NCBI RefSeq assembly: GCF_029267515.1
Contig: NZ_JAJUIS010000003.1
Location: 62,001 to 126,000 of the forward strand
Source: Seleniivibrio woodruffii
Lineage (GTDB): Bacteria > Chrysiogenota > Deferribacteres > Deferribacterales > Geovibrionaceae
Direction: 5' to 3'
Length of the DNA: 64,000 bases
The notes below the pieces were generated by a model that saw nothing but the letters and a program-made list of their open reading frames with translations, was not told the origin of the DNA and ran no database searches. Made by a program: the position numbers and the translations under genes. Below are positions 5,937 to 45,254 of this stretch, in pieces; position 1 is the first letter of the stretch, and each line of letters begins with the position of its first letter.

Positions 5937-7190
5937 TTATAAAGTCTTTAGATGTGTTTTGCTGGTTGAACCCGTACAAGCGGCAAGCGGGAGCACTATG
6001 CGCACCGTTACTCCGCCTTCACAGTTGAAGATGTCAATAGTGCCGCGCATGTATTTTTCTATGACGGTTTTGCTGATGAAAAGCCCCAAGCCTATTCCTT
6101 CGCCCTCGTCCTTGGTTGTGAAATAAGGTTCAAAAATTCGTGAGAGAGCCTTTTCCGGTATGTTTTCGCCATTGTTTGTCACGGTTATTACTACACATTC
6201 TGCGGAAAACCTGACATGAAATTCAATTTTCCCACGGGAGCGGTGTCCGCTCATAATAGCTTTTACTATGGCATATCTCGCATTTGAAATGATGTTCAGG
6301 AAAATATGCTTCATCTCTATTCCGCTGCATTTTATAAGGTTTTCCTGAGACTGGCAGGGGGGCAGTTTAACTTCGTTAGTGCAGATGAAATAGTCGTTGC
6401 TTGATTCGCAGATAAAAGTGAAATCTATCCCGCACTGCTGGAGTTGGCTGAAAACAAGTGAAATACACTCTGTCAGCACGGAGGTTACCGATATCAGATC
6501 CTCTTCATGCCTGTCGCTGAAAAAACTGCGGAAGCTGTCTATAGTGGAGGACATCTTCATTATCAGTTCCATTGCCATGGCTGTGTTGGACTTTATCTCA
6601 TCCGACTGCAGACCGGAAATTTCCGCAGCTTCCTGAGTGTCCTGCACGATGAGCGCAAGCGCGTTGAGCGGCTGTCTCCACTGGTGGGCAATGGCTCCCA
6701 GCATCTCGCCCATAAGTTCCAGACGGGTTTTGTTGAAGATACGTTCCTCAATGCCGAGATATACTCTGTTTTCATCCTTTATAATATCTGCTTCGCTGCG
6801 CCGGAAAGCGGAATGGCTGCGGAGGAATGTGCCGTCAGGTCTGCGCTCTATGGTGCCGTTGAAAACAAGCTCCATTGCGTGCCCTGCCTTATGCTTCATG
6901 ATGAAGGTGAAATCTTCAATGATTCCCTTTTCGCGAAGGTGCGCAAAGCCCTTTTTAAATTTTTCAAGATATGTCTCGTGTATGAAATCGCCGAACCATC
7001 TCCCTATGACCTCTTCGCGGGCATAGCCGAGAGTGTCCAGCCAGACCTGATTTATATCCAGCATAATACCGTTTGCATCAATGGATTGATAACCGAGTGA
7101 AGACCGCCTGATAAGCTCGCGAAGAGCCGCGTTCTCGTTTTTCAGGTTTCTCAGACTGTCTTTATCAATTCTCCTGTCTGAATCACACAT
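5937..7190 (-). CDS. Cytosolic PAS sensor histidine kinase with four-Cys insert (K1)
   Basis: A soluble kinase of 417 residues: short N-terminal coiled coil, PAS domain (about 28-140), phosphoacceptor helix with [16 protein letters not shown] (His169), and a GHKL ATPase domain with N-box [11 protein letters not shown] and [21 protein letters not shown]. Between the dimerisation helices and the N-box lie four cysteines at 261, 270, 279 and 288, a regular C-x8-C-x8-C-x8-C array that ordinary kinases lack; three other kinases in this window have a similar insert. ATG at 7190 is chosen over the TTG six bases upstream because AAGG lies six bases before it. No response regulator is adjacent. Signal and partner are unknown. 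Confidence 0.93.
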
Positions 7191-7266
7191 GAACAACCTT
7201 ATAGTATTTTATATTTAATGTTAAAGTATGCAGATGTGGAATGCAACAGAGAATGAGAATTATGGA

Positions 7267-24727: not shown

Positions 24728-24903
24728 ATGTGATGCTCCGTTACACACAAGCGTTATAAACCGATTATATGATACCTTATATGAATTGATAAATAAATAG
24801 TCAAACTTTACCTGAGAGGTAAAAATCACGTTTTATGTCCTTTTTTTATGCTATAATTTCAATTATCGGTTTTTTATTAATCTTTAATTAATTGGAGCTT
24901 ATC

Positions 24904-26793
24904 TTGCATGACAGTAAGCGGGCGGTTTTGCTCTTCATACTTCTTTCCTTTCTGACCATCGCAGCCGGAGCCGTTGTTACAGGATATTGGTATGTGAATA
25001 CTAAATCCATCTATGAGCAAAGACTTATTGAGATTGTGCGCGCCCGCAAAGATATATTTATCTCCGTTTATGCAAAACTTTATGAAAATAATCCGGAAAC
25101 CGCGGCGGCTGGCGCTGTTGATGTTCTCAGAAAAAGTTTCAGTCCGACCGTATATAAAAATTATTCCAGCGAGTTTTATATAGCGTCACTAACAGGCGGC
25201 AACTTTGCGATATTAAGCCATAGCAGGCGTGAAAACTTCGACGATGCCGCAGGCAGTTTTTCAAACGTGCCTTCCGATTCCATCCTTGCCCTTGCCCTGT
25301 CAGACCGGAGCGGACTTACATCCGCAACGGATTACACAGGGGAAAAAGTACTGGCGGCGTATGACCATGTGGACATAGGAAGCGTGCGCTACGGCATGGT
25401 AGCCAAGATAAGATACAGCGAGGTAATTTCTCCGAAAACAAAAGCGGTTGTGTCGTCCGTTCTGATGGCGCTGGTGATAATTGTCGGCGGCGGACTGGGG
25501 TTTTATATATTTTCCGCGAGGCGCGTGGACAGGCTTATAAAGGCGAAGAAGGAACTGGAGCTTTACGGAGATATCTTCGACAGTCTGGATGAGTATGTGG
25601 CGTTTCTGGATGCCGACCTGAAATATCTTTCCGCAAATAAAGCGTACCTCTCCATTCTTAACGCCGAACTGAAGGACATTATAGGAAAACCGTTCGGTGA
25701 AAAGATGAAAAAAAACCAGATGGACGAGATACTCTCTCCATATTTTAAACAGGCGCAGCAGGGACATTTCGTCTCCTTTTCCGGCTGGTTTACTTTGCCG
25801 GGCAGAGGCGAGACATACGTTGATGCAGCTTTCCTGCCTCACAAAGTTGACAATATTGTGCAGGGCGTTGTTATCCGCGCCAGCGACAGAACGCAGGAGG
25901 CGGTGGCGAAAGAGGCGCTTATTTCCCGCTCTAAAGAGCTGCAGAGGCTCACAGCGGAGCTGGAACAGAGGGTTCGCGAAGAAACCGCAAAACGGATGAT
26001 GCAGGAGCAGCTTTTTTTCGAGCAGAAGAAATTTGCCGACATGGGGCAAATGATAAATGCCATAGCCCACCAGTGGAGGCAGCCCATAAACTCGGTCGGA
26101 TTGTATATTCAGCTTGTTTACGAGAGCTTTAAAGACAATTCTCTGGACGAGGCTATGCTTGAAAACTTTAAAATGGACTCCATGAAGCTGATCCAGCACA
26201 TGTCGAAGACCATTGACGATTTCCGTAGTTTCTTCAATCCGCGCAGCGAGGAGACCTCTTTTGAGGTGATAAAGGCGGTTATAGACACTGTTTCTCTGGT
26301 TGAGGCACAGCTTAAAAACGTTTCAATAGAGTTCACAATAACATGCAGATGCAGGGAGAGGGATTTTGAAGCGTGTAACAATCTCCTTCGTCCCCCTTGC
26401 GAGCTGCCTGAAACCCTTGTCAGCGGCTTTTCGTCAGAGTTTCGTCAGGTTCTGATGAATATTGTTCAGAACGCCAAGGATGTTTTAGCGGACAAACAAG
26501 GCAGTAAGAAGGTAACGGTAGCCGTGTCAGCTCTGGACGAAAATGTCACCGTGTCGATATCGGACAACGGCGGAGGTGTACCGGATGGTATAAAACATAA
26601 AATTTTCGACCCGTATTTCACCACCAAACCTGAAGGAAAGGGCACGGGAATAGGGCTCTACATGTCACGCATGATAATTGAAGAGCATATGGGCGGAAAA
26701 ATATCCGTGAACAACGATGAAAGCGGAGCGGTTTTCATAATAGTCCTGCCGCGTATCAGCCCCAGAATGAAAAAATTTAATCCGGCAGCGTGA
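24904..26793 (+). CDS. Membrane PAS sensor histidine kinase with four-Cys insert (K2)
   Basis: About 629 residues: membrane helix ([20 protein letters not shown]), periplasmic sensor of some 145 residues that looks Cache-like, second helix ([18 protein letters not shown]), PAS, coiled coil, phosphoacceptor [16 protein letters not shown] (His389) and GHKL ATPase with [21 protein letters not shown] and [19 protein letters not shown]. Cysteines 481, 483, 491 and 499 (C-x-C-x7-C-x7-C) sit just before the N-box. TTG at 24904 is favoured as start because GGAG lies six bases upstream. Its stop overlaps the convergent phzF-like gene by 17 bases. No regulator gene is adjacent. Confidence 0.92.
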
Positions 26794-31456: not shown

Positions 31457-31571
31457 TCTGCGAACGGCAGTCCGATCCATTTTCAATCTTAATATTACAT
31501 TTCTTTGATAATAAAAGGCTCAGTCTGGACTATATTTATTATGGCGGCAAAACTCCGTTGTGAGGCATGTC

Positions 31572-33308
31572 ATGTCAGTTCAGAAACGCACCTTTATTTT
31601 TATCACGGCTATAATTATTCTCATCTGCGCGCTTTACACAGGGCTTCTGGAGTATGAGGGAGCGAAGCAGGCGGCAAAAGCGGCAAGAGAGAAAAAAGAT
31701 GTTATTACAGGACTTTATATTGATTTCCCTATCCGGATAGACAAGCTGCTCAGCCAGAAAACGCGGGAGATTGCATCGGACGGAGAGGTTGTTGAGGCTT
31801 TGAAAGCGGCGGATCGAAAGGCGCTTGTGTCGGCGGCTTATAATCTTTATGAGCGGCTTGCCGACGAGTTCACCCGCGAAAAGGTCATAATGAATTTCAT
31901 CCTGCCCGACGGCACCGTCCTTTTGCGGATGTCTGCGCCAAAGGTTTACGGCGACGTTGTTAAAGGGAGGCGTGTTCTTTTTGATAAAGCCGTGGAAACG
32001 GGATTTTCCCAGTCGGGAACTGAGGAGGGCGCAAGCGGTATATTCATCCGCAACATCCTGCCTATCTATTCCGGCGGTGTCTGCATAGGCTATGCGGAGA
32101 CTGGAGTTACCCTTGATTTTCTTGTGAAGCGGATAAGCTCCACCATGCGTATGGACGGCGCTGTGCTTATATTCAGCCGCTTTGCCGATATGGTTTCCGA
32201 TATAACCGATTACACACGATTTTCAGACAGATACATGCTGTTCAGCACTGACGACGCACTTTTCCGTGTTATACTGCAAAATTTCTACGAAGACGGAGGC
32301 GGTGAGAAACATGAATCGTATATGAATAAACGGTATCATGTAATAAACGGCATAGACATCTCCGACGCCACTGGCACTGTAATAGGCGAGCTGGTCTTTC
32401 TTGCGGACGAAACGGGGCAGTATCACAAAATGATGCGGCACATCGTCATTTCCGCCCTCATCGGTGTTTTCATAATCCTCATTTCAGTTCTTGTCATGAA
32501 GCGTAACTTTATAGACCTGATAGGCGACCTTGAATACAGGCACAACAAGATAGAGCAGCAACTCAAAGATTACAGCAAAAATCTTGAATCACAGATGGAT
32601 ACGGCACTGGAAAAGCTGGCGGAAACAGAGCAGACCATACAGAACCGGAAAAAGATGTCCGATATTGAGCGTATCACCGACGCAATGTCTCACAAACTGG
32701 CGAAGCCGCTTGCGGAGATAAAGAACAGCGTACAGAAAACTGAAAACACAGCCGCAACGGAACAGCAGCTTGGGCTTATAGCCGAGATGGAGCAGTATCT
32801 TGACGAGGTTAACAGCTATTTCCGCAGATATGACGGTAAAGAGGTTTTCGACGTTTCCGAAGAGATACAGGCGCTTCTCTACATAATGCGCAGCCACCTG
32901 AAACAGAACGGCATCACGGTGGTTTTTACGGAAGAGGAGGGGATGGGAACGGAAGTGTTCGGTTACAGGGGCGAGTTTAAGCAGGCGCTGATGAATATCA
33001 TATCAAATTCGGCGGATGCTCTGAAATCTAAGCATCACAATACACATGGCTTTGAACCGTCAGTTCGCATAAATGCAGAGACGGACGGAGGCAGCGTGCG
33101 GGTGGTTGTAACGGATAACGGCGGCGGTATAGAGAATATCGGGCGCATATTCGATTCGGGATACACCACAAAGGGCAACGGGCACGCCGGACTCGGACTG
33201 TTCATCGCGAAAAATATAATTGAAAAACATATGAACGGGCGGATATACGCCCACAACACGGAAGACGGCGCGTCTTTCGTCATCCTTGTTCCCGTTTTCC
33301 AGTCCTGA
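31572..33308 (+). CDS. Membrane sensor histidine kinase without Cys insert (K5)
   Basis: About 578 residues: membrane helix (FIFITAIIILICALYTGLL), periplasmic sensor of about 260 residues with FILPDGTVLLRMSAPKVYGD and NILPIYSGGVCIGYAETGV, resembling the dCache_3-type ligand domains, second helix (HIVISALIGVFIILISVLVM), coiled coil, phosphoacceptor DAMSHKLAKPLAEIKN, then a GHKL ATPase with LMNIISNSADAL and GYTTKGNGHAGLGLFIAKN. The region before the N-box has no cysteine, unlike four other kinases here. ATG 31572 with GAGG six bases upstream is preferred over GTG 31560. It may respond to the ligand of the upstream importer, but no regulator is adjacent. Confidence 0.9.
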   Translation: MSVQKRTFIFITAIIILICALYTGLLEYEGAKQAAKAAREKKDVITGLYIDFPIRIDKLLSQKTREIASDGEVVEALKAADRKALVSAAYNLYERLADEFTREKVIMNFILPDGTVLLRMSAPKVYGDVVKGRRVLFDKAVETGFSQSGTEEGASGIFIRNILPIYSGGVCIGYAETGVTLDFLVKRISSTMRMDGAVLIFSRFADMVSDITDYTRFSDRYMLFSTDDALFRVILQNFYEDGGGEKHESYMNKRYHVINGIDISDATGTVIGELVFLADETGQYHKMMRHIVISALIGVFIILISVLVMKRNFIDLIGDLEYRHNKIEQQLKDYSKNLESQMDTALEKLAETEQTIQNRKKMSDIERITDAMSHKLAKPLAEIKNSVQKTENTAATEQQLGLIAEMEQYLDEVNSYFRRYDGKEVFDVSEEIQALLYIMRSHLKQNGITVVFTEEEGMGTEVFGYRGEFKQALMNIISNSADALKSKHHNTHGFEPSVRINAETDGGSVRVVVTDNGGGIENIGRIFDSGYTTKGNGHAGLGLFIAKNIIEKHMNGRIYAHNTEDGASFVILVPVFQS

Positions 33309-36159: not shown

Positions 36160-37548
36160 ATGATATACAGTAAAGAGTTGAGCAGACGTGTAGTTTCCGT
36201 GGGCGGTTTTTCGTTTCTTTTCGCATATATTCTGTCTTTTCTGTTTGAGGGAAGAGTTCTTTACAGCGTTCTGGAATACCACGGCGTGCCAGAGAACAAC
36301 ATGATACTCTCCGCCATAGTTGCCCATTTTGCCGGGCTTTTCACATGCGGATTTTTTGTACGCTCTCTGGAAGCGGCGAAGAAGAACGTTCTTGCCGGAA
36401 TGGCGGTAAGTGTTGTCTGCACGCTGCCTTTCTTTTTCAGACCGTCTTTTCTGTGGCTGCCTTCGCTTGTTGTCGCAGGCTATTCGTCCGCTCTTGCCGT
36501 CGCCTCATGGGGCTATTTCCTGAAAACCTTCACTCCGAGAAATCAGCGCATAAAAACCTGTGCAGACGTGCTCATATATTCCAACATAATCATGATATTC
36601 GTCAATATGTCCGCAGTACATATTTCCGGCACAGCGGGACTTGTTTCGGCTCTGCTTTGCGTTCTGACCGGTGGCTATTTCATACTGAGGCTCCCGCTTA
36701 ATGTCCAAGAGAAAAAATGCTGCGCGGAAAGCGGGGGCACGAAAAAGCCCATGCTTATACTGTTCCTGTTCGTTTTCATAATCACCATAAATTCAGGGCT
36801 TATGTATCAGGTGATGAATCCCGCCTTCGAGCATCTTACAACGTTAACAAGCTGGTACTGGGCAGTACCCTACATAGGTGCGCTCATTGTAATGCGTAAC
36901 CTGCCGGGCAGGATAAGCCGGTATGCCATACTCTATTTCGGAATGGCTACAATAATTGCTTCATTCATCTGTTTCATGCTGCTTGGGCGGGGCGCTTCAG
37001 ACTATCTCATTGTGAACACGCTTATGCTCGGCGCCTGCGGGATATTCGACCTTTTCTGGTGGAGCATCATCGGCGATATGCTGGACTATACCGACAATCC
37101 CGCCAGGATGTTTGGGATGAACCTTTCCGCAAATGTTCTCGGCGTGCTGTGCGGCGGCGCCATAGGTATGTTCATCACATCGGCGAACCTTGCCGATTCC
37201 GAAGTCGCCGTCATTGCCCTTACGGTGGTGTGCATCACCCTTGCCATGCTGCCGCTGCTCAACCGGATGCTGGTTATGAAGCTGAAAAGCCACGCTTATC
37301 TCATGGATGAGGAGTTTTTCGTCCCGCAGGAGGCTTTCCGCAGAGACAAAGTTGAAACTTTTGAACCGCTCACCGCAAGGGAACAGGAGGTTTTACACCT
37401 TATTCTTTCGGGTAAATCCAACAAGTCCATTGCCGATACGCTGAATATAAGCGAAAGCACCGTAAAAACCCATGCCCGCAATATCTTTTCAAAATACAGC
37501 GTCAGCAGCCGCGCAGAGCTTATAAGTCTTCTTCTTCAAAACAGATAG
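36160..37548 (+). CDS. Multi-spanning membrane protein with C-terminal LuxR HTH domain
   Basis: A 462-residue fusion. The first 370 residues contain about twelve hydrophobic segments in an MFS-like order (for example LFLFVFIITINSGLMYQVM and FGMATIIASFICFMLLG). Residues from about 400 on form a LuxR/FixJ HTH: LTAREQEVLHLILSGKSNKS, IADTLNISESTVKTHARNIF. The regulator is thus anchored in the membrane, and a transporter-like body may serve as sensor. Similar MFS-LuxR fusions are known from Coriobacteriia. No receiver domain is present. The gene is alone; its targets are unknown. Confidence 0.88.
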   Translation: MIYSKELSRRVVSVGGFSFLFAYILSFLFEGRVLYSVLEYHGVPENNMILSAIVAHFAGLFTCGFFVRSLEAAKKNVLAGMAVSVVCTLPFFFRPSFLWLPSLVVAGYSSALAVASWGYFLKTFTPRNQRIKTCADVLIYSNIIMIFVNMSAVHISGTAGLVSALLCVLTGGYFILRLPLNVQEKKCCAESGGTKKPMLILFLFVFIITINSGLMYQVMNPAFEHLTTLTSWYWAVPYIGALIVMRNLPGRISRYAILYFGMATIIASFICFMLLGRGASDYLIVNTLMLGACGIFDLFWWSIIGDMLDYTDNPARMFGMNLSANVLGVLCGGAIGMFITSANLADSEVAVIALTVVCITLAMLPLLNRMLVMKLKSHAYLMDEEFFVPQEAFRRDKVETFEPLTAREQEVLHLILSGKSNKSIADTLNISESTVKTHARNIFSKYSVSSRAELISLLLQNR

Positions 37549-37670
37549 TCGTTTACACCCTTTTCATACTTTAGTATTAGTCATTTTTTAATCAATTTCA
37601 GCCTTACGGTCGATGTGTTTCCGGTTTTTATTTTCTATACTTGTATATCAACAGCACAGGAGGAAATGGG

Positions 37671-39275
37671 ATGGCAAGGTCGGTGTCGTTTACATTCGTG
37701 CGGATTGTTTTGTGTTCGCTTGCGCTGCTGGTGGCGGGCTGCGGCGGGGGAGGCGGGAGCGCGGAACCTGTAGGCACCGAAGAGGTCTCTCTGTCAGATA
37801 CGGGCGAAGACAGAAAAGCGGCGGAAAAAGCAGGTGCAATCGCTGTCAGAAAATATATTGAGGCGCGTCTTCTTACTGAAAAATTCATAACATATGATTT
37901 TTCAAATCCAGATAGACCTGAGCTTGAAGCTATCATTGACGAGGCGCTTTCCGCATGGGCGGAGGCGGAAGAGATAGCGGAGAAGGCTGAAACTGTTGCA
38001 GCGGCTGTGGAGGCGAAAGAGGCGGCGAAGGGAAGAATATTCAGCCTGTCGGGCAGAAATGCTGCTCAGGACTGGGCAAATGAGCTTATAAACAGCTTTG
38101 ACGCATACCCCGCCGGAAAAAAGATAAGAGGTCTCGCGGCTCAGCTTGGTGTTGACGCGAAAAAAGCGAACGAGCAGCTTCATCTGGCAAAGCAGATAAT
38201 AAGCGCGGATGCGGAAGACGAAGCGGAGATGTGGGACGACCTGATGAAAACGGCTATGGCTACGAAGACAGTTTGTAAAACAGGACTCTTTGTGACGGGA
38301 ATGATAGCCACAGGAGGAAGCATAGGAGCCATTGCCGGCGGTTCGACGTCGCTTATGACGGCGGGCGGCATAATAGTGGGCGGTGCGGATACAATAGTTG
38401 ATATAGGCACGACAACCAGCACTATCATCCTTGGTGAAAAAAACAGGGTGACTGTCGGGTTTAACGATATAAAAGAGAAGCTGGGTCCTTTGTCTTCGGT
38501 CGTGGGACTTATAACTTTCAATCCCGCTGAAACGGGGGAGCAGCTTTCTTATCTGGGCGAGAGTATTCTGGATTTTGTCTATGAAGGCAAAGTGCTGGGC
38601 GGGTTGATAAAATGGGAGAACGGCACTCCGGCGGGAGTTGACATATCCGAAATGCCGCTGGACGGCAGATCGCTCCAGACTGTTGTACGGGAACTTGAGT
38701 CTATGGGGTACACGGTTGACGAGGAAACGGTGGAACAAACTGCGGACAGCATCGCCGAACTGGTGCAGGAAGGGTCTGACATCAGTTTCGAAGAGGTGAG
38801 CGCTATAATGGATGACCTTCTGGCGGAGGTTACGCCAGTTGATGATAATGATGACGACAGCACGGGCGGAGAAGACGGAGGCGACACCGGAGACGATACG
38901 GGTGACGATACGGGTGACGATGACACCGGTGATGACGGCGGCGGCAACGACAACGACAGCGATGTACCGCTTACGATAGGAGATGTTGCGGGATATTATA
39001 ACGTAACCATGACCGTGGCAAACCCTGATGATAATCCTGATGCACCGGACAGGAGCGCCACTATAAGGGTGTGGCAGACCGATTCTTCGACTAACATATT
39101 GAATGTGAACGTGTCTTCGGGCTATTTCGTGTTCGACAGTATTACACTTACGGCAGCAGGAACCAGTGCCGGTGAGAATCTGTCGTTTTCCGGCAGCATT
39201 ACCGGAACGATATCAATCAGCGGATATCTCGTATACGGAATACCATATTATGTAAGCGGGGTGAAGATTCCCTGA
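37671..39275 (+). CDS. Large lipoprotein with Asp/Gly/Thr-rich linker
   Basis: About 534 residues. The lipobox LVAG-Cys followed by a Gly stretch marks a lipoprotein. A helical, Ala/Glu-rich domain (about 25-190) is followed by a hydrophobic glycine-rich segment (TGGSIGAIAGGSTSLMTAGG), a further soluble region, then a low-complexity linker made of GDDTGDD-type repeats (DNA 38880-38950) that resembles calcium-binding acidic linkers, and a C-terminal beta-rich domain of about 110 residues (GDVAGYYNVTMTV) that looks like a lipocalin/META-type module. AGGAGG precedes ATG 37671. No family name is known to me; surface display is likely. Confidence 0.75.
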   Translation: MARSVSFTFVRIVLCSLALLVAGCGGGGGSAEPVGTEEVSLSDTGEDRKAAEKAGAIAVRKYIEARLLTEKFITYDFSNPDRPELEAIIDEALSAWAEAEEIAEKAETVAAAVEAKEAAKGRIFSLSGRNAAQDWANELINSFDAYPAGKKIRGLAAQLGVDAKKANEQLHLAKQIISADAEDEAEMWDDLMKTAMATKTVCKTGLFVTGMIATGGSIGAIAGGSTSLMTAGGIIVGGADTIVDIGTTTSTIILGEKNRVTVGFNDIKEKLGPLSSVVGLITFNPAETGEQLSYLGESILDFVYEGKVLGGLIKWENGTPAGVDISEMPLDGRSLQTVVRELESMGYTVDEETVEQTADSIAELVQEGSDISFEEVSAIMDDLLAEVTPVDDNDDDSTGGEDGGDTGDDTGDDTGDDDTGDDGGGNDNDSDVPLTIGDVAGYYNVTMTVANPDDNPDAPDRSATIRVWQTDSSTNILNVNVSSGYFVFDSITLTAAGTSAGENLSFSGSITGTISISGYLVYGIPYYVSGVKIP

Positions 39276-40964: not shown

Positions 40965-41074
40965 TAAAATCAAATATGTTTTTCCGCAATGTTATACAAT
41001 GAAATTGCCGTTTAACGATTTATATGTGTATAATAACTGGAATGACCATTTGATTGTTATTTCGGAGTTTTCCG

Positions 41075-43075
41075 ATGGAGAAAGAGTTTTTCAGGTCCAT
41101 AATAAATAAAGCCGATTTCGGCTATGTGCTGCTCAGTTCCGAAGTTTTCAATAATTACCGCAACTCTGTGATTGAAGATGCAAACGAGGCTTTCGCTTCG
41201 ATGGTCGGGTGTGTTTCAGCAAAAATTATCGGTACGAAAACCGTATCTTCAAACTGCCCTTTTTTCGGCGGTGATTTCGAAAATATCGTAAAGAATTCCA
41301 TAATTATCCCCGTTTTTCATTTTGTTCCGGAACTCGGCAAGGGTTTTCACATCGAATCGGTGAAATCCGCTGAGGGACAGGTTGCACTTATCGTGCGTGA
41401 CGACAGTGAAATGTCCTCTGCCTATACCGCTCTGAAAGAGAAGCAGGAGCAGCTTAAAACACTCATCGACGCCACGCCGGACATTATCTGTTTTAAAGAC
41501 AGCAAAGGGCGCTGGCTGGAAGCCAACGCGAGCTGCCTTGCCGCTTTCGCTCTCAGAAAAGAGGATTACACCGGAAAGAGTGACAAAGAGCTTGCAGACT
41601 TTACCCTTCCGATATTCAGAGAGGCGCTGGAAGCCTGTGCCCGCTCCGATGAAAGCACATGGCAGAAGAAGGTGATAAGCCGCGAAGAAGAAATAATTTC
41701 TATGCCAGACGGCAGCGTTCGGGTTTTCGATGCCATCAAGATACCCTTGTTTTATGATGCGGAGAAGACAGTCCGCAAGGGACTTGTCGCCCTCGGCAGG
41801 GACATTACAGACCTGAAAAATGCCTATAACGAAATACGGAGACAGGCAGGGCTGATAAGATCCCTTTTCAATACCATTCCCGACCTGATTTTCTACAAAG
41901 ATCTGAACGGCGTATACCTCGGATGTAACAAGGCTTTTGCGGAATTTGTAGGGGAAAATACTGAAAGCATCGTCGGAAAGAGCGACTATGACCTTTTCGC
42001 GCGTGAAATTGCAGAAGAGTTTGTGGCAAATGACAAAATAATGCTGGCAATGCGTCAGCCGAGAATAAACGACGAATGGATAGAGTATAAGAACGGCTCA
42101 AGGCATCTTGTTGCCACGGTTAAAACGCCCTATTACAGCGCCGACGGAGAGCTTTCCGGTCTGCTGGGCATCAGCCGTGACATAACCGAGCTTAACAGAC
42201 AATCCCGCGAACTTCAGGAGATAAACGCAAACCTACACGACACCATCGTAAGAGAGACGGAGAAGAACAGAAAATACGAACAGATTCTTTTTAATCAGAA
42301 GAAGCTGGCGGATATCGGCAACATAATCAGCGCTATGGCTCACCACTGGCGACAGCCTCTTAATGCACTGGGGCTTTATATTCAGGATATCTGTCAGACT
42401 TACAGGGAAGACGGGCTTAATAAAAGCTATATAAAAGATTTCGAAACGACCTGTATGCAGCTCATCGGCAGTCTTTCGGATACTATAGATAATTTCAGCG
42501 ATTTTTTCAGACCGCAGGGCAATAACTCCGCATTCAAAATAATGACTGAAATAAGGGATATTCTTAAAATATACGAGGCGAAACTGGCGTATCACGGCAT
42601 AAACTTCAGTTCCTCCTGTATCTGCGGCTCCAACTTTATGGATTGTCAGGAATTTTATGAGGAAAGCAGCGCGTGCGGATATCAGAATATAGTTGTTGAC
42701 GGCTATAAGGATGAATTCAAACAAGCATTCATCAACGTGCTCCAGAACGCTGTTGATGCGCTTGACGAAGAGTCTTATCCGGATTTGAAAGAGAAGATAA
42801 TAAGTGTTGACGTTACCAGTGAAAACGACAGACTGCTTATAAGAATATTCAATAACGGCAGACAGATACCGGAATATGTAGCCGAAAGGATTTATAACCC
42901 TTATTTCACAACGAAAGGCGAGGGTAAGGGCACTGGCATCGGGCTTTACCTGACTAAAAATATCATTGAGAATTATATGCGCGGCAGGTTGTATTTTGAG
43001 AATGTGGAAAACGGTGTAGCATTTTATATCTCACTGCCTGTCAGAGATCTGAAACCTGTCCGCGAAACAACTTAA
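41075..43075 (+). CDS. Cytosolic triple-PAS sensor histidine kinase with four-Cys insert (K3)
   Basis: About 666 residues, no membrane helix. Three PAS-like regions (about 1-110, 125-250, 260-375), the second and third starting with the typical LIDATPDIICFKDSKGRWLE and LFNTIPDLIFYKDLNGVYLG, then a coiled coil, phosphoacceptor [15 protein letters not shown] (His423) and GHKL ATPase with FINVLQNAVDAL and [19 protein letters not shown]. Cysteines 515, 517, 524 and 534 (C-x-C-x6-C-x9-C) lie in the insert before the N-box. ATG 41075 is chosen for the GGAG upstream. Its last 35 bases overlap the convergent kinase K4. Confidence 0.93.
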   Translation: MEKEFFRSIINKADFGYVLLSSEVFNNYRNSVIEDANEAFASMVGCVSAKIIGTKTVSSNCPFFGGDFENIVKNSIIIPVFHFVPELGKGFHIESVKSAEGQVALIVRDDSEMSSAYTALKEKQEQLKTLIDATPDIICFKDSKGRWLEANASCLAAFALRKEDYTGKSDKELADFTLPIFREALEACARSDESTWQKKVISREEEIISMPDGSVRVFDAIKIPLFYDAEKTVRKGLVALGRDITDLKNAYNEIRRQAGLIRSLFNTIPDLIFYKDLNGVYLGCNKAFAEFVGENTESIVGKSDYDLFAREIAEEFVANDKIMLAMRQPRINDEWIEYKNGSRHLVATVKTPYYSADGELSGLLGISRDITELNRQSRELQEINANLHDTIVRETEKNRKYEQILFNQKKLADIGNIISAMAHHWRQPLNALGLYIQDICQTYREDGLNKSYIKDFETTCMQLIGSLSDTIDNFSDFFRPQGNNSAFKIMTEIRDILKIYEAKLAYHGINFSSSCICGSNFMDCQEFYEESSACGYQNIVVDGYKDEFKQAFINVLQNAVDALDEESYPDLKEKIISVDVTSENDRLLIRIFNNGRQIPEYVAERIYNPYFTTKGEGKGTGIGLYLTKNIIENYMRGRLYFENVENGVAFYISLPVRDLKPVRETT

Positions 43076-45254
43076 AGTCCATTACTATGGTCAGTCCGCC
43101 GAGATGGTTGTTAAATGCTGCAACCTTTCCGCCCAGGCTCTGTTCCGTGAGCACCCTGACCATATAAAGACCTATGCCTGAGAATTTTGCATCATTTTTA
43201 GTTGTAAAATAGGGTTCAAATATACGCCCCAGAAGTTCGGGCGGAACACCTGTTCCGTTGTCTTCTATACTGACAGTGACTCTTTCATCGGAGCAGACAA
43301 TGTTGATAGAGATGTTCCCTTCCATATCCGGCTGTTTCTCCATCCTTTCAAGTATCGCCTCATAACTGTTGTTCAGTATGTTGATTAGCATCTGGCGGAA
43401 CTCCCCCGGCTGCCCGTAAAGAGTTATTTCGCTGCATCTTTCGCATCCCTGACATGGTGAGAAATGTATGTCCGGTTCCCGTCTGCACATAAATCTTGTT
43501 TTGATACTTTTTGATGCAATGTGTACCGAGAGGATTGCGTTTGTGTTTTTAAGTTCCTCAACTACATTGAATTTTTCTTTATTGCCTCCGGTTTCAAAGA
43601 ACAGCCTGAAATTGTCTATGGTGTCGGACATCTTTTTCACAAGCGTCATGGCAGTCTGTTCAAACTCAGTGTATATAGGAGCGGTTTCGTCGATGTTCAG
43701 GCTGTCGGGTATTGACTGAATCATCAGACCCAATGCGTTCAGCGGCTGGCGCCACTGGTGGGCTATGGCGCTTACCATAAGCCCCATATCGGCCAGTTTC
43801 TTCTGCTCGGCTAGGACGTGGGACTGCCTGCGGTTCTTTTCAACCTCTTCTTCAACGCGTTTTTCAAGGTTCTTGTTAACAGATTCAAGCTCAAGGTTCA
43901 GTTCCCGCAGCTTTTGTTCCATTTCAACGGAACGACTTATGTCCAGACAGTTGAAAAGCAGAGACTTTTCACCCAGTTTAACTGCTTTGGTCATCATAGA
44001 AGTCTCTTTTCCTTCACGGTCGACGATATGCAGAATACCCTCGTTGTGCCCTTCATGAAAAGCTCTGGAATAGAATTTATTCAGCTCGTTGCGCCTGTCT
44101 GCGGTTATGAAATCATAAAGAGATCTTATCGCCATATCTTTTTTTGCCAGCCCGACTGTCTCAAGAAACCTCAGGTTGGCTTCCGTGAATATTTTTGAAT
44201 CGTTGGTGGTAAATATTGACATGGGTGAATTGTCTATGTATTCCCGATACTGGGATTCGCTTAAAACCAGCTTGTTAATGGTCTCCTCATGAAGTTTTTC
44301 CAGTGCTCCGACAGTTTTGTTGAAACCTGTTCGGATGAGTAAAAGGGACAGAAAGCAGAAGACCAGTGTTACGAATATAACCCTCAGTGTGTAGGAAAGC
44401 ATTGCTGTGACGTTCGGGGTTACATCTTTCGCGTATATGAATTTTCCAAGCTCCCTGCCGCCGGAGGAGTAAAATCGGATGTCGTCGGAAACCCTGTAGT
44501 GCATGTTGCCGACACTGACCATGTCACTCAGGGAATTATAATCTTTTACGGATTCGAGAAGTCTGCGGAACATTGTATTGTTGGTATTCTGCATTAGGGC
44601 GTATCTGCCGTAGACAGGCATCCCTTCGATTTTCTGTGCGGAGGTGTCCGCAAGAACAGCCATGCTGTAACCGGTAGACTGTTCCATAGCCTTGCCGTAA
44701 AATTCAAGAGAGGTGCCGAGTTCGACGGAACCTATCAGCATACCGTTGTAGTACATCGGCAACGCAGAGAACTGGAAAACGCGGTCTGCGCATACTTCGT
44801 ATGCAGTTCCCGCCGCTTTGCCGGAAAGGGCGTTCAACACAGCTTCTGATACCGGATCGGGGCAGTGGTCGGCTTTTCTGTCGCTTGAGAAAAGCAGAGT
44901 TCCGTCTGCCGCAATTATCCTGAACACAAATGTGTCATCGGGATACTCGAAATCCAGCGCGTTGGTGTGGATAGACATTCTGCCCATAAGCAGCGGAATG
45001 TTCCTGCTGTTCACAGATTCCAGAAGGGACGGGTCGGAAATCAGTCTGTTCAGATTCGATTTGAGCACTCTGGAAAGCTGGGATGTCACAAATCTCTGGT
45101 TGTTTTCCACCAGATAGCTTTCCTGTGTCAGTTCAGCTTTATATTCCATATAGCGCAGAGATATATTGGACAGTGCGAATAATGTACACGTTGTAATAAG
45201 AATCATGCTGGCATAAATAAAGATTTTGTGTTTGATACCTTGGTTATAGTTCAT
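43041..45254 (-). CDS. Membrane PAS sensor histidine kinase with four-Cys insert (K4)
   Basis: A 737-residue kinase: membrane helix (IFIYASMILITTCTLFALS), periplasmic sensor of about 250 residues of double-Cache appearance (FRIIAADGTLLFSSD, LPMYYNGMLIGSVELG), second helix (VIFVTLVFCFLSLLLI), PAS (about 330-440), coiled coil, phosphoacceptor [16 protein letters not shown] (His499) and GHKL ATPase with LINILNNSYEAI and [19 protein letters not shown]. Cysteines 590, 601, 604 and 607 form C-x10-C-x2-C-x2-C before the N-box. Convergent overlap of 35 bases with K3. No ribosome site is visible before the ATG. Confidence 0.93.
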   Translation of the reverse strand: MNYNQGIKHKIFIYASMILITTCTLFALSNISLRYMEYKAELTQESYLVENNQRFVTSQLSRVLKSNLNRLISDPSLLESVNSRNIPLLMGRMSIHTNALDFEYPDDTFVFRIIAADGTLLFSSDRKADHCPDPVSEAVLNALSGKAAGTAYEVCADRVFQFSALPMYYNGMLIGSVELGTSLEFYGKAMEQSTGYSMAVLADTSAQKIEGMPVYGRYALMQNTNNTMFRRLLESVKDYNSLSDMVSVGNMHYRVSDDIRFYSSGGRELGKFIYAKDVTPNVTAMLSYTLRVIFVTLVFCFLSLLLIRTGFNKTVGALEKLHEETINKLVLSESQYREYIDNSPMSIFTTNDSKIFTEANLRFLETVGLAKKDMAIRSLYDFITADRRNELNKFYSRAFHEGHNEGILHIVDREGKETSMMTKAVKLGEKSLLFNCLDISRSVEMEQKLRELNLELESVNKNLEKRVEEEVEKNRRQSHVLAEQKKLADMGLMVSAIAHQWRQPLNALGLMIQSIPDSLNIDETAPIYTEFEQTAMTLVKKMSDTIDNFRLFFETGGNKEKFNVVEELKNTNAILSVHIASKSIKTRFMCRREPDIHFSPCQGCERCSEITLYGQPGEFRQMLINILNNSYEAILERMEKQPDMEGNISINIVCSDERVTVSIEDNGTGVPPELLGRIFEPYFTTKNDAKFSGIGLYMVRVLTEQSLGGKVAAFNNHLGGLTIVMDFKLFRGQVSDL

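Follow-up and report, generated by a model that had tools for sequence, protein, structure and literature searches.

What does the locus hold? The window, by which we mean the whole 64,000-nucleotide stretch of Seleniivibrio woodruffii DNA analysed here, encodes five related histidine kinases, K1 to K4 with cysteines in an equivalent hairpin and a fifth without. The features needed below are these, with positions counted from the first letter of the window:

5937..7196, minus strand: K1, PAS histidine kinase, C-x8-C-x8-C and another Cys close to the end of the hairpin
24892..26793, plus strand: K2, PAS histidine kinase, C-x-C-x7-C-x7-C in the equivalent hairpin
31560..33308, plus strand: fifth related kinase, short hairpin with no Cys there; a natural control
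41054..43075, plus strand: K3, PAS-PAS histidine kinase, C-x-C-x6-C-x9-C in the equivalent hairpin
43041..45254, minus strand: K4, sensor histidine kinase of 737 aa with dCache_3, PAS, the H-box HQWRQPLN and HATPase_c
43434..43487, minus strand: Cys590 to Cys607 of K4, C-x10-C-x2-C-x2-C, predicted in the beta1-beta2 hairpin of the CA domain (codons and model)
43485..43487, minus strand: anchor Cys590, on predicted strand beta1 of K4, at the offset of the first Cys in 136 of 152 multi-Cys long hairpins
43434..43436, minus strand: anchor Cys607, just before predicted strand beta2 of K4, at the position of the last Cys in 137 of 152 multi-Cys long hairpins

The K3 and K4 genes lie tail to tail (convergent) and overlap by 35 bases at 43041-43075. 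No REC domain is encoded within 20 kb of either; among the 27 kinases of the same genome that we compared, for 7 the nearest REC domain lies no more than 3.5 kb away, and 4 sit on REC-free contigs. Elsewhere in the window, 36160-37548 (plus strand) encodes an apparent multi-pass membrane protein with a C-terminal LuxR-type DNA-binding domain (GerE), which amounts to a transporter-like body with a regulator attached. The product of 37641-39275 (plus strand), 544 aa long and lipoprotein-like, contains an acidic repeat rich in Gly and Asp and matches no Pfam family.

The dCache_3, PAS and HATPase_c matches of K4 all exceed their Pfam cut-offs, and HATPase_c (PF02518, 61 bits against a cut-off of 26.4) covers residues 617-728, starting just past the cysteine set. 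HisKA (PF00512) scores 19.6, below its cut-off of 26.9; the H-box is nevertheless present. Around the set the open reading frame translates as ...IKTRFMCRREPDIHFSPCQGCERCSEITLYGQPGEFRQMLINILNNSYEA..., flanked by the strand IKTRF and the N-box helix GEFRQMLINILNN, and the cysteines of the insert are C590, C601, C604 and C607. Their codons, read from Cys607 to Cys590, occupy 43434-43487 exactly, just as an earlier note on this DNA had it. Six other cysteines are present in K4, at positions 23, 131, 155, 300, 436 and 654. Cys131 and Cys155, in the dCache sensor region, are conserved and possibly form a periplasmic disulphide.

An AlphaFold2 model of the K4 core (mean pLDDT 85; input alignment A2, composed of the 5 window sequences and 45 of 80 many-phyla loci) has the ordinary DHp-CA layout. 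In this model the cysteine set is placed in the beta1-beta2 hairpin of the CA domain, before the N-box helix, which agrees with the earlier placement of the insert inside the ATPase domain. Cys590 is predicted on strand 109-117, a short helix spans 130-134, and a second strand (136-139) follows after Cys607; the tip of the hairpin is less confident, with 10-residue blocks at pLDDT 89, 67 and 90. The K3 model (pLDDT 83) has a similar layout. Foldseek returned histidine kinase cores as the top matches of the K4 model, and histidine kinase cores were also the solved relatives found in a fold search with the K3 model (VIA-align). None of the titles of the 50 VIA-align entries listed for K3 names a metal-bearing CA hairpin, titles being no test of its presence.

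How common is such a hairpin among related kinases? We compared 294 distinct aligned kinase cores, drawn from the window's own genome, its order, named genomes of many phyla, eight further genomes and one Nitrospirota family. Removed prior to counting were duplicates, cores shorter than 150 aa or scoring below 80 bits, and frames interrupted by stops, except for uninterrupted segments of 150 aa or more. Besides the returned loci, 40 of 114 matches were fetched for the eight-genome set and 60 from among the Nitrospirota-family matches listed; since longer matches were preferred in both fetched sets, the sample is tilted toward long hairpins. A long hairpin was present in 187 cores of this trait-enriched sample and a short one in 107, and because Cys-bearing kinases were the seeds of the searches that supplied most of the 294 cores, class fractions given below are not population frequencies. 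Of the 84 cores that came from the many-phyla search, which covered the best 80 of 576 relatives, 7 carried a long hairpin.

The two hairpin types differ sharply in cysteine content. Kinases of the HWRQPLN type without the insert share the H-box, N-box and ATP-binding motifs of K4, whereas their beta1-beta2 loop is short and mostly Cys-free (no cysteine in 89 of 107, one in 17, two in 1). Long hairpins hold no cysteine in 22 cases, one in 13, two in 46, three in 43, four in 56, five in 6 and six in 1, so that at least four are found in 63 of 187, versus 0 of 107 short ones. This range of 0 to 6 rules out an all-or-none presence of four cysteines, and the long hairpins with no cysteine or a single one indicate that the loop can exist without the site. 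Tracing these traits on a FastTree phylogeny (127 rows, insert columns removed, 36 of 124 inner branches starred) gave 11 changes between long and short and 22 in the presence of at least three cysteines, 17 of them inside long rows; these are counts without a shuffled control, in which gain and loss look alike.

Two positions stand out as constant. Of the 152 long hairpins that hold two or more cysteines, 136 share a single offset for the first one, and 137 have the last one 7-9 residues ahead of where strand 2 ends; the corresponding anchor pair in K4 is Cys590 and Cys607, on the two sides of the hairpin base. Further putative ligands shift between classes, appearing as C-x-C on strand 1, as C-x-C at strand 2 or as C-x2-H on strand 1. 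We compared each class with 300 residue shuffles of the inserts, the rows being related and hence not independent events. About C-x-C-x6-C-x8-C (C-x-C-x5..7-C-x7..10-C) occurs in 35 of 187 long hairpins (shuffles: mean 0.5, maximum 4), about C-x2-H-x12-C (C-x2-H-x11..15-C) in 56-57 (mean 2.4, maximum 7), about C-x18-C-x-C (C-x15..20-C-x-C) in 20-21 (mean 4.3, maximum 12) and about C-x-C-x15-C (C-x-C-x13..18-C) in 10-17 (mean 2.6, maximum 8). The C-x2-H form is absent from all 107 short loops. It is present in 41 of the 81 long hairpins of loci L210-L299, which were found by a whole-core profile that includes this form, and many of the His forms in relatives show just three clear ligands.

Chance cysteines are ruled out by the low background (0.65% Cys in the remainder of 205 collected kinase cores), the fixed anchors and the class counts above shuffles. 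This verdict is carried by the family-wide pattern, because conservation among K4 orthologues alone proves little. As judged from the aligned sequences, then, a Cys/His hairpin of putative metal-binding type in the catalytic domain of histidine kinases is a real feature, and one larger than K4.

Cys hairpins recur in the window's own family, with close matches including Deferribacteraceae bacterium UBA6793, UBA6799 and Denitrovibrio sp. A search of the order's other families with the A1 profile (E <= 1e-60) gave hits in 0 of 12 genomes, an empty result that is no evidence by itself. In genome G049 this profile went down to 1e-113, and at E <= 1e-78 it picked out 2 of 41 Nitrospirota genomes, including G046 itself. 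The C-x2-H form was first met in Nitrospirota loci and one Myxococcota record. A second profile, A4, was built from 11 rows picked for showing this form and includes the His column, and the invariant His of its rows is therefore not independent evidence. At E <= 1e-80 it matched 19 of 19 genomes of the Nitrospirota family that contains G046 and G048 (Candidatus Magnetobacteriaceae bacterium); all 19 have at least one long hairpin with at least two cysteines, and 15 have C-x2-H. At E <= 1e-70 and with 14 candidates scored per genome listed, A4 matched 2 of 188 Myxococcota genomes, G047 itself and G246. The hairpin is confirmed in just one of these, because the G246 locus (L210) has a short hairpin without cysteine. 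A Cys hairpin also occurs at one locus each in Nitrospinota (L063) and Myxococcota (L060).

Within the window's own genome (2.83 Mb), 17 of the best 27 of 50 matches have a long hairpin, 9 of these with at least four cysteines. Three paralogues (L003, L006 and L007) keep the length of the long hairpin and have no cysteine in it. A fourth (L026, 700-2259, plus strand), with a Tll0287-like sensor, has a longer hairpin insert with C-x20-C-x6-C-x3-C. Upstream of the Cys hairpins of this genome lie dCache_3, PAS, HK_sensor_dom_bact and Tll0287-like sensors. Since the hairpin is found behind many different sensor domains, it belongs to the output module and not to one signal.

Against this background, K4 is by its spacing an atypical member of the hairpin family. 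Its form, C-x10-C-x2-C-x2-C, occurs in 4 of 187 long hairpins (shuffles: mean 0.08, maximum 2), an excess that is not independent because the four rows are close relatives; they form one clade with support 100 in the tree (FastTree, insert columns removed). The four distinct cores come from the window's genome (G000), its congeners G021, G022 and G023, and G050, whose copy is identical to that of G021 across the insert, codons included. That every species of the genus has the K4 form is ruled out, the form being found in 4 of 5 genus genomes; the fifth (G020) gave a single match, L040, of the C-x-C form. The K3 and K4 pair is syntenic in three congeners. In the orthologues all four insert cysteines are kept, their codons swapping synonymously between TGC and TGT, and the intervening residues vary (QG/ER, LS/GR, QN/GL). 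We nevertheless dropped this conservation as proof for the K4 set, since the six cysteines outside the insert are conserved in the same four aligned orthologues (4 of 4). The earlier note had singled out K4 as the best of the four inserts, a ranking that its rare, single-clade spacing does not support; K2 and K3 hold the commoner four-Cys form. K1 is the weakest of the four, because L160, a close relative, has Ile in place of the second hairpin Cys.

What could such a hairpin do? We propose that in K4, a membrane sensor histidine kinase, it is closed by a putative metal-thiolate site, most likely of Zn(II), acting mainly as a structural staple, a reading whose chances we put at about even. Cys590 on strand 1 and Cys607 before strand 2 would provide the fixed pair across the hairpin base, and Cys601 and Cys604 would fill out a four-thiolate site. 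The Zn(II) staple would shape the hairpin beside the N-box helix, giving the catalytic domain a surface for docking or regulation; if the site were lost or oxidised, kinase activity could in addition fall. A metal staple, with zinc as the likeliest metal, is suggested because the anchor pair is fixed and the further ligands are movable, with His among them. Zinc sites commonly use His as a ligand and have ligands that shift, whereas both are uncommon in [4Fe-4S] sites. The general pattern of a Cys/His zinc site fits as well, with four Cys in K4 and both Cys and His in use among relatives. Against this, a zinc ribbon or zinc knuckle has two C-x2-C (or C-x2-H) knuckles, whereas K4 has one C-x2-C-x2-C run and a single Cys, unlike the usual zinc knuckles. 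For K4, we infer metal binding, the identity of the metal, the staple role and the effect on activity alike. Zinc itself is not foreign to histidine kinases: WalK holds zinc by four amino acids in a cytoplasmic PAS domain (PMC8534201; see also PMC6624279), whereas the candidate site of K4 lies in the CA domain. Among the open-licence papers listed, judged by their titles and the opening lines of their abstracts, none describes cysteines inserted into the CA domain of a kinase.

An iron-sulphur cluster ([4Fe-4S] or [2Fe-2S]) in the CA domain of K4, reporting redox state or oxygen straight to the catalytic step, is the alternative that survives best, and we consider it unlikely. Many [4Fe-4S] sites have a three-plus-one ligand layout, which the C-x2-C-x2-C run with its distant Cys recalls; this is the best argument for a cluster. 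The ferredoxin-type [4Fe-4S] motif, C-x2-C-x2-C-x3-C, is not the order found in K4, where no Cys lies 3 residues downstream and the fourth is 10 upstream. The resemblance to a ferredoxin or zinc ribbon that had been suggested for K4 thus holds for one C-x2-C-x2-C run, and fails for lack of a following C-x3-C and of a second C-x2-C knuckle. A Pfam search of the isolated inserts (K1 to K4 and L012, E up to 10) gave no family, most weak matches being filtered out, and no Fe-S family is among the 11 Pfam families listed for the whole K4 protein. All four insert cysteines are conserved in the orthologues, as a cluster would favour, but conservation fails to single them out from the six others, and the surrounding family uses C-x-C and C-x2-H spacings with ligands that slide. 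Iron-sulphur histidine kinases are known: NreB and AirS have N-terminal Fe-S clusters (PMC8774646) and the chloroplast sensor kinase is a [3Fe-4S] protein with its ligand Cys in a GAF domain (PMC6949291). These clusters sit in N-terminal sensor regions, whereas the K4 set lies in the CA domain; an NreB-type placement fails, as Cys590 to Cys607 follow the H-box region and directly precede HATPase_c. Of the cluster proposed for K4, the data support a genuine metal-type ligand set but not its being specifically iron-sulphur, given the spacings, the His and the moving ligands of the family.

Alternatively, Cys590 and Cys607 could form a reversible disulphide, a thiol switch by which the hairpin is clamped or released, with the other cysteines tuning it. 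The pair across the hairpin base is the most constant feature of the family, and 15 of 187 long hairpins have two cysteines and no C-x2-H, which counts against a metal site and is compatible with a disulphide. SrrB of Staphylococcus aureus likewise has cysteines inside the CA domain (PMC8534201, PMC8774646), a redox-sensitive disulphide to whose state kinase activity responds. SrrB differs in having one intramolecular disulphide, whereas the inserted hairpin of K4 offers four candidate ligands, of which its relatives show Cys/His variants. The structure 6PAJ, relevant to an SrrB-type disulphide, is a weak sequence match (E 0.003). A disulphide does not need third and fourth ligands, which lie far above shuffles, or the His found in 56 of 187, and such a His, in the C-x2-H form, is present in 31 of the 46 hairpins with two Cys; we regard this reading as improbable.

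We give still less weight to the hairpin as a sensor of soft metals (copper, cadmium, arsenic), whose binding would switch the kinase. Open three-ligand sites occur in some metal-sensing proteins, and the Cys-His-Cys and Cys-Cys-Cys forms in relatives would leave such a site open; a site common to many paralogues, 9 of 27 compared kinases of this genome having at least four cysteines, is however odd for a dedicated sensor. Finally, a functionless Cys-rich loop without cofactor, which the Cys-free long hairpins and the varying ligands might suggest, is very unlikely given the fixed anchors and class counts that exceed shuffles.

A metal-thiolate site, most likely zinc, thus remains our preferred reading of the hairpin, and its varied ligand spellings provide natural mutants ready for use, for which long hairpins lacking Cys and paralogues with a short hairpin can serve as controls. 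Among the histidine kinases considered here for comparison, cofactors sit in N-terminal sensor domains and control through the catalytic domain is exceptional (SrrB, PMC8534201). It is conceivable, although we hold this only tentatively, that kinases of Deferribacterota and of Magnetobacteriaceae-type Nitrospirota carry a redox- or metal-labile cofactor (Fe-S or switchable zinc-thiolate) in the ATP-binding domain, and so share a second cytoplasmic redox or metal input across their different sensors. If a metal site in the catalytic domain is true, it would represent an added common control or structural device across many paralogues with different sensors.
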